This document shows positions 691 to 4,540 of a stretch of DNA of 38,452 bases, piece by piece (the stretch's first letter is position 1; each line of letters begins with the position of its first letter). This stretch comes from Elusimicrobiota bacterium. Its GTDB lineage: Bacteria > Elusimicrobiota > Elusimicrobia > Elusimicrobiales > UBA9959. Below the pieces are notes generated by a model. That model was given only the letters and a program-made list of their open reading frames with translations, was not told the DNA's origin and did not search any database. The position numbers and the translations under genes were made by a program. The DNA lies in contig JACRER010000073.1 in the NCBI GenBank assembly GCA_016234365.1, positions 1 to 38,452 on the forward strand, written 5' to 3'.

Positions 691-1182
691 TTATTCCCTA
701 ATATAGTGACAGGTATAGCCGCCGGGATGTTTCTTCAGGTAATCCTGGTGGTACTCTTCGGCCGGCCAGAATTTTGCCGCCGGGACCACCTGCGTGGTGA
801 TGGGGCGCTTCCAGAGCCCGGAGGCCTGCGCGCGCTTTACCGCGGCCGCGGCCTCCAGCTTCTGGGCGTCAGTGTGAAAAAAGATAGCGGACCGGTACTG
901 GCTGCCCACGTCGTTGCCCTGCCTGTCGGGCGTGGTGGGGTCGTGCATCTTGAAGAACATGTCCAGGATGGCGCCGTATGAAAGTTTGGCGGGGTTAAAA
1001 ACTATTTCAATACTCTCGGCGTGGCCGGTAGTCCCGGTCTTCACTTCCTCGTAGCGGGGGTTGGCGGTCTTGCCCCCCGTATAACCTACGGTAGTCTTCA
1101 CAACTCCGGGCAGGGCGCGCAGGATCTCCTGCATGCCCCAGAAGCAGCCCCCGGCCAGCGTAGCAGTCTCGGTCTTTTCCAT
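691..1182 (-). CDS. msrA: Peptide-methionine (S)-S-oxide reductase MsrA
   Basis: A 163-residue MsrA that reduces methionine-S-sulfoxide in damaged proteins. The catalytic GCFWG motif is at 12-16 (Cys13), and a C-terminal Cys158 in GYTCHY can act as resolving cysteine. The only in-frame ATG is at 1182, behind AAAGGA with a 9-base spacing. However, the frame stays open upstream for at least 34 codons, to 1284. Those codons read as a signal peptide: a basic n-region with Arg and Lys, a hydrophobic Ala/Leu/Cys core and an AYAA-type cleavage site. No ATG, GTG or TTG begins it; the best candidate is an ATT at 1284 shortly after AGAGGA. A secreted isoform is therefore possible. The gene follows the ferric-reductase-like gene in the same direction. 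Confidence 0.93.
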   Translation of the reverse strand: MEKTETATLAGGCFWGMQEILRALPGVVKTTVGYTGGKTANPRYEEVKTGTTGHAESIEIVFNPAKLSYGAILDMFFKMHDPTTPDRQGNDVGSQYRSAIFFHTDAQKLEAAAAVKRAQASGLWKRPITTQVVPAAKFWPAEEYHQDYLKKHPGGYTCHYIRE

Positions 1183-1284
1183 TTTATTTTTTCCTTTGGG
1201 TTTGGGGGCGGCGTAAGCCGCCTGGCACAGGGCCAGGGCAAGGCAACAGGCAGCCAGAGTTTTAAAGCGAGAATTGTTCGTAAT
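1183..1284 (-). other. In-frame N-terminal extension of msrA encoding a signal-peptide-like segment
   Basis: Reading the msrA frame upstream of its ATG gives 34 sense codons with no stop. They contain the core LAACCLALALCQAAYAA after Arg-Phe-Lys-Thr, then a Lys/Pro-rich linker into MsrA. The first 23 bases overlap the 3' end of the upstream reductase gene, which fits translational coupling. The start codon is unresolved: ATT at 1284 (after AGAGGA), an ACG, or a CTG further upstream. The hydrophobic composition is unlikely to be chance, but initiation is inferred. Confidence 0.5.
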
Positions 1285-2593
1285 GTATCCTCTTGGCAGG
1301 CACGCCCAGCCCCAGCAGGGCCGTTCGCAGCGCGCTCATCATAGGCGGCGGGCCGCACAAGAAAGCGTCCCGCTCCGCCACGTCAGGGACCAGCCGCTTT
1401 ATGCAGGCCGCGTCCAGGCGGCCCTTTTCCCCCGGCCACTCCTTATCTTCGGTCAGTACGTGGACTGCGCGCAAGGCGCCGGTCTTCTCCAGCCCGGCCA
1501 GTTCCTCGCGGAAGATGATGTCCCGGGCGGACCGGTTGGAGAACAGCAGCACGGCGTCGCCCTTGGCGGCGCAGATCTTTTCCGCCATGGCGCGCAGCGG
1601 GGTGATGCCAATGCCGCCCGCCAGGAACAGCGCCTTGTCCGCCCGCATTTTCGCCGGAGTGAAGACGCCGTGTGGACCGTCGATCATAACCGGGACGCCC
1701 GGCTTAAGTTCCGCGTGAAGTTTAGCCGTGAAGTCTCCGAGTTTCTTTATACTGAAGCGCAGCTCGCCCCCGCCAGGGGCTTTGGAGAAAGAGAACGGGT
1801 GCGCCTGCAGCTTAAAGCCCGGAGCCCAGAACCGCAGCAGCGCGAACTGGCCAGCCTCGGCCTGGAAATTCTCCAGCCCATTCCCTTTTATATATACGGA
1901 CATGACGTCCGGAGATTCCATGACGGTCCTGTCCACGGCGAAAGCGTGACGCCTGAACAGCCACAGCGGTCGCAGCAGGCGGTACCACAACACGTTAGCC
2001 GCGGTGAAGGCCAGCAGCGCGTACCAGGTCCAGGCGAAATACGGCAGTTCGGCGGACATGTCCCCGCCGAGTTCCAGCTGGTGGCCGATAGAAAGGGCCA
2101 GGCCGAAGTAGGCCCCCAGGTGGACGGTGTGCCACGCCTCGTAACTGAGCCGCCGGCGCGTAAAAGGCAGCGACAGGAAGACGGCAAGCAGGATCAGGAA
2201 CTCCCCGGCGGCGGCCGGCAGGACGTCCTCCCATTTCAGGACGGCCAGGTACTGCGCCAGGAACGTGTTGCCGGTCTGCATCATATGGTGCCACACCACC
2301 AGCGGCGGGTGCGCCAGCAGGGCCAGCGGTATTATGAGCCCTAGCACGTGGTGAAAGCGGGTGAGGCGGTCCAGGCCGAAAGGCGGCTCCAGCCATTTGG
2401 CGCGCGACACCAGCAAGAGCTGCAGCATCACGCCCAGCGCGCCCAGCACGCCGGCCAGCCGGCCGAAGGCCATGGCCAGTCCGAGTTTGTCGGCGAAGAA
2501 ACTGCCAAAGGGGGCCGTGCTGTTATCGAAATACCACAGATACATCGCCGCGCAGGCCAGCGCCGGAAAGACCGCGAGTGAAATTTTCTTCAT
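1262..2593 (-). CDS. Ferric-reductase-like transmembrane flavocytochrome (heme b, FAD, NAD(P)H)
   Basis: A 443-residue protein of the ferric reductase/NADPH-oxidase superfamily. The N-terminal half has about six membrane helices with likely heme-ligand histidines (His81/82, His95, His155/158, His171). The C-terminal half is a ferredoxin-reductase-type module with HPFSFS at 265-270 (FAD) and GGIGITP at 326-332 (NAD(P)H). There is no 2Fe-2S domain. It should pass electrons from cytoplasmic NAD(P)H across the membrane to an outside acceptor. I chose the ATG at 2593 because the protein then begins as a membrane segment (MKKISLAVFPAL); a longer frame to 2680 would overlap the rubrerythrin gene. 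Neighbours encode exported rubrerythrin and MsrA, so it may supply their reductant. That link is inference. Confidence 0.82.
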   Translation of the reverse strand: MKKISLAVFPALACAAMYLWYFDNSTAPFGSFFADKLGLAMAFGRLAGVLGALGVMLQLLLVSRAKWLEPPFGLDRLTRFHHVLGLIIPLALLAHPPLVVWHHMMQTGNTFLAQYLAVLKWEDVLPAAAGEFLILLAVFLSLPFTRRRLSYEAWHTVHLGAYFGLALSIGHQLELGGDMSAELPYFAWTWYALLAFTAANVLWYRLLRPLWLFRRHAFAVDRTVMESPDVMSVYIKGNGLENFQAEAGQFALLRFWAPGFKLQAHPFSFSKAPGGGELRFSIKKLGDFTAKLHAELKPGVPVMIDGPHGVFTPAKMRADKALFLAGGIGITPLRAMAEKICAAKGDAVLLFSNRSARDIIFREELAGLEKTGALRAVHVLTEDKEWPGEKGRLDAACIKRLVPDVAERDAFLCGPPPMMSALRTALLGLGVPAKRIHYEQFSL

Positions 2594-2628
2594 AAAAATG
2601 ACCGGCGCCCCCGCAAAAGGGGCGCCGG
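2594..2628 (-). terminator. Strong hairpin between rubrerythrin and reductase genes (terminator or attenuator)
   Basis: A perfect 10-bp GC-only stem (2602-2611 with 2619-2628) and a 7-base loop. On the minus strand it is followed by TCATTTTT, running straight into the reductase ATG at 2593. It should end most rubrerythrin transcripts and pass a fraction into the reductase gene, and it also sits where the reductase ribosome-binding site should be. Confidence 0.65.
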
Positions 2629-2640
2629 CCCGGACAGCGA

Positions 2641-3264
2641 TTACTGTATCTCGGCGAACTGCTCGCGCGGCGCGGAACATACGGGGCAGACCTTCAGGTT
2701 CAGGTCCATGGTGGTATAGCCGCAGACCTGGCAGACCAGGAATTTCCTGGCGGTTTTCCAGCCGTTGAGGTTCTTGAGCGCCTGGGCGTAATACTGGGCG
2801 TGCATCTTCTCGGCGGCCATCGCGCCCTTGAAGCTGTACAGGGCCTGCGTGTTCTTGTCGGCCTCGGCTTTCTTCAGGAAGGCCGGATACATCTTCTTGG
2901 CCTCGTGGTTCTCGCCGTTAAGCGCCTCTTTCAGGTTCTCTTTGGTGCTTTTCACCACCGGCGCTTTCACGTCGGCCTTGGCCACGCCGCCCAGCGCCTC
3001 TATGGCCTTGGCGTGCTTGGCCGCGTGAATGGCCTCGGACGCGGCGGCGGCCTTGAAGAGGCCCGCGGCGCCGAGGTAGCCCTCGGTCTGCGCCTTGGCG
3101 GCGAAGGCTTCGTAGCGGGCCTTGGCGTTGGACTCGCCGTTAAAGGCGGTCTGCAGGTTCTCAAGCGTGGTAGCCTCCGGCTTCTGCGCGGGCTTGGCCT
3201 CCCCAGCGACGGCGGCACAGGCCAGCATGGCTACGGCGGCGGCTGACATCATTATCTTTTTCAT
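2641..3264 (-). CDS. Exported rubrerythrin with C-terminal rubredoxin-like domain
   Basis: A 207-residue rubrerythrin, a non-heme diiron peroxidase. It carries a clear N-terminal signal peptide (MKKIMMSAAAVAMLACAAVA, cleavage near residue 20), unusual because most rubrerythrins are cytoplasmic. Four-helix-bundle ligands are present: Glu44, Glu77 and His80, Glu118 and Glu121, Glu152 and His155. The rubredoxin-like knuckles are Cys178/Cys181 and Cys193/Cys196. All residues needed for H2O2 reduction are therefore kept. The start is set by AGGAGA 7 bases before the ATG. It has its own -10 (TATAAT at 3313-3308) and lies in a run with OsmC, a membrane flavocytochrome and MsrA, suggesting periplasmic peroxide defence. 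Confidence 0.93.
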   Translation of the reverse strand: MKKIMMSAAAVAMLACAAVAGEAKPAQKPEATTLENLQTAFNGESNAKARYEAFAAKAQTEGYLGAAGLFKAAAASEAIHAAKHAKAIEALGGVAKADVKAPVVKSTKENLKEALNGENHEAKKMYPAFLKKAEADKNTQALYSFKGAMAAEKMHAQYYAQALKNLNGWKTARKFLVCQVCGYTTMDLNLKVCPVCSAPREQFAEIQ

Positions 3265-3271
3265 GTTATTT

Positions 3272-3313
3272 TCTCCTAAATACCCAAATATTCCCTACCC
3301 GAAAACCATTATA
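3272..3313 (-). promoter_or_regulatory. Promoter and ribosome-binding site of the rubrerythrin gene
   Basis: A consensus TATAAT on the minus strand (3313-3308) and AGGAGA (3277-3272) before the ATG at 3264. A possible -35, TTGATG, lies 19 bases upstream inside the end of the OsmC gene. Confidence 0.6.
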
Positions 3314-3334
3314 CAACTTAAGGCCGGAACGGCA

Positions 3335-3736
3335 TCAACGGAACTCGAACTCCAGTTTTATGTCCGGGTGCAGGCTGCGGCTCACGGGGCAGGCCTTCAC
3401 GCAGGCCAGTAGTTTTTCTCGCTGTTTCGGCTCCAGCCCGGCCGGCAAAGTTATCACGCCGGTCAGCCGCGCTATGCGGCGCGGGTTTTCCTGCATGTGC
3501 TTCTCAATCTCAAAAGCGGCGCCGAAAAAATTTATCCCCTCGCGCTCGGCCAGCTTGGCCATGATGGTAAGCACGCAGGACGCCACGGAAGCCGCGGCCA
3601 GGTCGGTAGGGGAAAAGGTCCGCCCTTTGCCGCCGTTGTCGGGCGGCAGGTCCGTGACCAGCTTGCTCCCGCTCAGGGCATGCACCAATTCCACCTGTCC
3701 GTCACCAGAATAGACCGCGTTTATCTTGAACGACAT
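3335..3736 (-). CDS. OsmC/Ohr-family peroxiredoxin-like protein
   Basis: A 133-residue OsmC-fold protein, a family that reduces organic hydroperoxides with two cysteines. Both are present: Cys54 in VASCVLT and Cys116 in ACPVSRSL. The sequence resembles the YhfA/OsmC branch more than classical Ohr, so the substrate is uncertain. I chose the ATG at 3736, preceded by GGGAGGAAAT, over the longer frame to 3760. No signal peptide, so it acts in the cytoplasm. It shares a divergent promoter region with the cyclophilin gene and lies 70 bases upstream of the rubrerythrin gene in the same direction. Confidence 0.85.
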   Translation of the reverse strand: MSFKINAVYSGDGQVELVHALSGSKLVTDLPPDNGGKGRTFSPTDLAAASVASCVLTIMAKLAEREGINFFGAAFEIEKHMQENPRRIARLTGVITLPAGLEPKQREKLLACVKACPVSRSLHPDIKLEFEFR

Positions 3737-3762
3737 TTGATTTCCTCCCGACCGGCACATTT

Positions 3763-3814: not shown

Positions 3815-4540
3815 ATGTCAGTTCGTAATTTTGCGCTCGCTTTAGCGGCGGTCTTAGCCGTCTCTTGCGCGCCTAAAACGCAGGAAAATACGCAGCCCGG
3901 CAGCGCCGGGACGCAGGCCGCCGCCCAGCAGGCTCCGGCCGCGCAGAACAAGGAGATAAAACCGGATATGGAAAAACTCAAGAACCCCGCAGCCGCCGCT
4001 GAAACCGCCCCCGCCTCTTTCAAGGTCAAGTTCAAGACCACCAAGGGCGACGTTACCATCTCGGTAACCCGCGACTGGGCCCCCCGCGGCGCCGACCGCT
4101 TCTACAGCCTGGTCAAAGCCGGCTATTTCACGGATATCGCCTTCTTCCGCGTGATCGGCGGCTTCATGGCGCAGTTCGGCATCCACGGCGACCCCGCGGT
4201 CTCCGCCGCCTGGCGCCCCGCCAACATCCAGGACGACCCGGTGAAGCAGTCCAACGGGCGCGGCTACCTCTCCTACGCCATGGCCGGCCCCGGCACGCGC
4301 ACTACCCAGTTCTTCATCAACTTCGGCGACAACTCCCAGCTGGATTCCATGGGCTTCTCGCCTTTCGGCAAGGTGACCGAAGGCATGGACGTGGTGGACA
4401 GCATCTATAACGGCTACGGCGAGGGCGCGCCGCGCGGCGCCGGCCCAGACCAGGGCCGCGTGCAGATGCAGGGCAACGCCTACCTTAAGAAGGACTTCCC
4501 CCGACTGGACTACATCCTGGGCGCGGAACTGCTGAATTAA
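3815..4540 (+). CDS. Cyclophilin-type peptidyl-prolyl isomerase, probable lipoprotein
   Basis: A 241-residue protein that catalyses cis-trans isomerisation of X-Pro bonds outside the cytoplasm. The N-terminus is a hydrophobic signal ending in LAVSC (Cys18), a slightly non-canonical lipobox, followed by an Ala/Gln/Pro linker to about residue 68. The cyclophilin domain runs from about 69 to 235. It keeps the catalytic Arg112 in FFRVI, Gln120 in FMAQFG and the substrate-pocket QFFIN at 165-169. The start is fixed by AGGAGG at 3803. It is followed by a strong terminator, so it is probably monocistronic. Confidence 0.92.
   Translation: MSVRNFALALAAVLAVSCAPKTQENTQPGSAGTQAAAQQAPAAQNKEIKPDMEKLKNPAAAAETAPASFKVKFKTTKGDVTISVTRDWAPRGADRFYSLVKAGYFTDIAFFRVIGGFMAQFGIHGDPAVSAAWRPANIQDDPVKQSNGRGYLSYAMAGPGTRTTQFFINFGDNSQLDSMGFSPFGKVTEGMDVVDSIYNGYGEGAPRGAGPDQGRVQMQGNAYLKKDFPRLDYILGAELLN

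Follow-up and report, generated by a model that had tools for sequence, protein, structure and literature searches.

The msrA gene in the window, the 38,452-nucleotide stretch of Elusimicrobiota DNA analysed here, raises the question of how a signal peptide that reads so clearly in front of the enzyme could be translated when no standard codon starts it. The window belongs to a single MAG (2.72 Mb in 100 contigs, high completeness), and the named relatives of its msrA gene are Elusimicrobia MAGs as well.

A signal peptide without a standard start precedes MsrA

The msrA frame consists of two parts:

691..1182, minus strand: msrA from ATG 1182, 163 aa, without the signal peptide (cytosolic form); PF01625.
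1183..1266, minus strand: signal-peptide segment (FKTLAACCLALALCQAAYA-APKPKGKNK) with no usable standard start; identified from its translation and from homologous signal peptides in relatives.

The downstream part is a PMSR-domain protein, which matches Pfam PF01625 with an E-value of 1e-64. The match covers residues 40-191 of a 197-residue query, and the GGCFWG motif is present (AGGCFWG in the query). Reading the minus strand, we found that ATT 1284-1282 shares the frame of ATG 1182 and that no stop intervenes, and the frame is open for 34 codons (ITNNSRFKTLAACCLALALCQAAYAAPKPKGKNK) upstream of its sole ATG, as an earlier note on this DNA had stated. Signal peptides were assessed by sequence features, without a dedicated predictor, and by these the extension shows a basic n-region, a hydrophobic core and an AYA-A site. 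A frame scan of the window found no ATG, GTG or TTG in the open msrA frame before 1182, in agreement with the earlier reading. Thus, the window MsrA has the peptide features of a Sec-exported protein but no in-frame standard start.

The extension is not a product of chance: it was itself aligned by tblastn against genomes of the same genus, and most relatives encode a homologous signal peptide in the same position before the MsrA domain; in many cases it includes a lipobox (LCACG, LASCG). The msrA gene occurs in 27 of 32 genomes of the genus that were compared, the window's own included, and the signal-peptide state changes four times on the MsrA tree. The signal peptide must accordingly have been gained or lost more than once, and export switched repeatedly. 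In one MsrA (L012) the signal peptide is frameshifted, and two others (L017, L023) lack it; all three keep an ATG near the domain boundary.

The normal start has probably been lost at the junction with the upstream gene

The msrA extension overlaps its upstream neighbour:

1262..2592, minus strand: NOX/ferric-reductase-like membrane flavoprotein, overlapping the msrA frame; PF01794, PF08022 and PF00175; same neighbour in several relatives.
1262..1264, minus strand: TAA stop of the flavoprotein gene, TGA there in relatives; from the nucleotide alignment of the junction.
1263..1265, minus strand: TTA where relatives carry the ATG or GTG start of the signal peptide, adjoining a one-base frame change; from the same alignment.

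The flavoprotein gene stops inside the msrA extension. In six relatives that share this neighbour (L002, L003, L005, L008, L021 and L022) the signal peptide starts with an ATG or GTG that overlaps the flavoprotein stop (ATGA or GTGA), and the junction reads CTATGA or CTGTGA, whereas the window has CTTTAA (within 1255-1290, TTTAAAAC). The C-terminal end of the flavoprotein is kept in the window (IHYEQFSL*), and the change of its stop from TGA to TAA removes the G needed for the overlapping ATG or GTG. Furthermore, just downstream of the junction one base is missing in the window compared with the relatives' frame. An intact upstream start for an exported form is thus present in the relatives and absent from the window, and because the nearest flavoprotein-sharing relatives have an ATG or GTG exactly where the window has TTTAA, the alignment indicates that the normal start of the msrA signal peptide was probably lost in the window species, and recently. 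The earlier note had proposed looking in relatives for a standard start at or before 1284; one does exist, but about 19 bases downstream of that position. The flavoprotein lies in an apparent oxidative-stress cluster (1262-3739, minus strand) of OsmC, a signal-peptide rubrerythrin, the NOX-like membrane flavoprotein and MsrA, whose order is the same in several relatives, while in others OsmC directly precedes MsrA.

We favour, with a probability of roughly 0.58, a model in which msrA is a two-start gene in this clade and the window species has lost the first start, leaving the peptide as a relic and only cytosolic MsrA being made. The first start, an ATG or GTG that in many cases overlaps the stop of the preceding gene, would give a Sec-exported or lipoprotein MsrA, and the second, with its own Shine-Dalgarno (SD) site within the linker, a cytosolic MsrA. 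In the window species the xTGA overlap would have become TTTAA, retaining the flavoprotein stop as TAA and destroying the msrA start, with the one-base frame change beside the junction accompanying the loss; the 34 codons would then be a recent signal-peptide relic, and ATG 1182 would yield only the cytosolic enzyme. Translation from either start, the localisation of the products and the order of the mutations are what we infer here from sequence comparison.

The age of such a loss can be gauged from the state of the peptide. At fourfold sites, near relatives lie at a distance of about 0.65 (range 0.64-0.97), which places the window branch at roughly 0.3 changes per neutral site. In a rough simulation, counted over three of its five starting sequences, an unused signal peptide stayed intact in about 2% of cases at a distance of about 0.3 and in 20-35% at 0.1. 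The window signal peptide is otherwise intact, which speaks against its being an old relic: the low expected survival means that the loss was recent, that the peptide is still made and some export persists, or that the assembly is wrong.

The last of these, a normal start hidden by an assembly or consensus error or by a minority strain variant, we regard as unlikely. An error of this kind would fit the otherwise intact peptide, the T/A runs at the site and the derivation of the sequence from a single MAG contig. However, at least two lesions relative to the relatives' pattern would have to be explained (xTGA to TTTAA, plus the one base), and a single-base change giving TTG would abolish the flavoprotein stop, which occupies the same position in 9 of 9 aligned relatives.

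Codons of the overlapping flavoprotein gene account for ATT 1284

The persistence of some export could be accounted for by a rare start codon. Upstream of the junction, two elements are relevant:

1282..1284, minus strand: ATT proposed earlier as a start; codes for His-Tyr (CAT TAC) in the flavoprotein gene; relatives keep the ATT, out of the msrA frame.
1288..1293, minus strand: AGAGGA before the ATT, Lys-Arg codons of the flavoprotein gene; duplex energy -5.8.

The earlier note correctly described ATT 1284 as following AGAGGA (1293-1288) and as overlapping the end of the upstream gene, the TAA of which lies at 1264-1262. The codons CAT TAC belong to the conserved ..IHYE.FSL* end of the flavoprotein, and in five signal-peptide-bearing relatives (L002, L003, L005, L021 and L022) the homologous ATTACG is one base out of the msrA frame. 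Judged from this alignment, the window ATT is therefore in the msrA frame only through the one-base change, that is, by accident. As the main reading, ATT as the start was consequently rejected, and of the two options offered in the earlier note it is the lost normal start that agrees with the relatives' ATG or GTG and the window's TTA, while the rare-start ATT gives way to the coding constraint of the flavoprotein.

As a rival, a working rare start at ATT 1284 (or CTG 1257) that yields a little exported MsrA after the frame change is doubtful. The gene for IF3 in Escherichia coli, infC, starts with ATT and provides a precedent for the non-standard start of the earlier model; unlike in infC, the ATT here is explained by the codons of an overlapping gene and is not conserved in frame as a start among orthologues. 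The infC of the same genome appears, from translations read by eye, to start with TTG after GGAGG, so that infC gives no hint of ATT starts in this genome. The ATT does have an SD-like site, and the signal peptide is intact despite the neutral decay expected of an unused one, but the AGAGGA ends only 3 bases ahead of the ATT, both are accounted for by the flavoprotein's conserved end, and no relative uses the codon as a start. The duplex energy of the AGAGGA site ranges from -0.9 to -6.6 in relatives with the out-of-frame ATT. Rare start codons do occur in redox regulation (PMC5472188). Together, these observations make ATT 1284 a possible weak start without comparative support.

A frameshift from the flavoprotein gene at the slippery sequence TTTAAAA was also considered and rejected: the heptamer, read as T TTA AAA, does not match the flavoprotein frame, and the frame that it does fit has no standard start nearby.

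ATG 1182 corresponds to a conserved, probable second start

The two-start model depends on ATG 1182 and on one further element before it:

1192..1197, minus strand: AAAGGA, SD-like site before ATG 1182; anti-SD duplex energy -5.6.

A Met homologous to ATG 1182 was found in 26 of 26 signal-peptide-bearing MsrAs compared, and it is the sole invariant column at the linker-domain boundary, within a linker that changes fast. The DNA before this Met reads AAGGGG, AGGAG, GGGAGG and similar in relatives, so that all 26 carry a conserved internal ATG with an SD site at the domain boundary. The mean anti-SD duplex energy at the boundary ATG is -7.7 in these MsrAs versus -3.9 for synonymous codons; the site is stronger than its own synonymous-codon expectation in every one of them and reaches -7 or lower in 21. 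By comparison, 64 other in-frame ATGs within the same domains have a mean of -3.5, and only 5 of them reach -7. The corresponding Wilcoxon p of 3e-8 is indicative only, its certainty being overstated by the non-independence of related sequences. The window's own site is weak (-5.6). First starts have weaker SD sites than second starts, as expected if they are coupled to the upstream stop. Thus, the earlier idea of two isoforms is well supported for the relatives, with ATG 1182 as the conserved second start, and is not supported for ATT as the start of a secreted form.

That the internal Met and the purine-rich linker are kept for reasons of the protein, as a Lys-rich spacer rather than as a second start, seems very improbable. 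Linkers are often rich in Lys and Arg and would be encoded by AAG and AGG codons in any case; however, the residues beneath the SD site vary (KG, RS, GR, EE, GG) while the site stays, and neither the 26 of 26 excess over synonymous codon choice nor the invariance of the Met alone would follow from a need for basic residues. Among the very few exported MsrAs from outside Elusimicrobia in the fetched loci, no internal SD-ATG was seen.

MsrB shares the proposed two-start arrangement

The msrB gene of the same genome (L130, 1467-1954) parallels msrA. It encodes a lipoprotein, its GTG start overlaps the upstream TGA (GTGA), and its product begins MKRVFFCLAAALAACAPAKEAP and continues through AAGGAGGCCCCCATG into the domain, with a perfect AAGGAGG before the internal ATG. 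A boundary Met is present in 25 of the 27 lipoprotein MsrBs fetched, mostly with GGAGG or similar (counted by eye). In a survey of 348 kb of stretches from the genome, the window included, 4 of 77 signal-peptide-like genes sampled had an internal ATG with an SD site of -7 or lower at codons 20-75; MsrB was the strongest of these four, and a neighbouring peptidyl-prolyl isomerase was another.

The isomerase, a cyclophilin-type lipoprotein (window 3815-4540, plus strand), has its internal ATG at 3968 after AAGGAG (KEIKPDM), and every relative checked retains both this Met and the SD-like site. The Lys-Glu residues, however, are themselves mostly conserved, and the SD spacing is long, at 12 nt. 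This gene may also be a two-start gene.

Tentatively, and with slightly less than even confidence, we propose a clade-wide two-start system of Msr repair that comprises MsrA, MsrB and perhaps the cyclophilin isomerase, and in which the envelope form of MsrA would be switched off by loss of the first start. With a second start conserved in MsrA as well as in MsrB, changes of start codon would by themselves suffice to double or switch the localisation of oxidative-repair enzymes, and where genes overlap, conversion of the first gene's stop from TGA to TAA could abolish export of the next protein. Since gene finders choose one start per gene, such proteins would be called secreted or cytosolic, not both; the genes described here form a concrete, testable set for internal initiation beyond model bacteria.

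A search of the literature on Elusimicrobia Msr and on bacterial dual localisation via alternative starts found nothing direct, but related systems offer a comparison. In Neisseria, one gene yields periplasmic PilB (MsrAB) and cytosolic PilB-AB, the latter by internal reinitiation at the AUG of Met195 (PMC6210582), although the short form was not observed in gonococci in subsequent work (PMC6372556). Like PilB, the arrangement proposed here has a single msr gene, a long exported and a short cytosolic form, and an AUG in the linker before the MSR domain. Unlike PilB, MsrA and MsrB are here stand-alone proteins of separate genes, with a short signal or lipoprotein linker and no N-terminal TlpA-like domain; moreover, the PilB forms have been reported, whereas the dual forms proposed here are suggested by evolutionary evidence. 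Similarly, Ribo-RET in Salmonella revealed pairs of N-terminal proteoforms, for example OmpX and PagC with or without a signal peptide (PMC11005335). Those alternative in-frame starts are likewise predicted to change localisation, but they concern other genes and were measured, while ours are read from sequence.

In two loci (L135 and L142, in G025 and G076) MsrA and MsrB domains are joined in a single open frame, and there the internal ATG is absent at the MsrB boundary.
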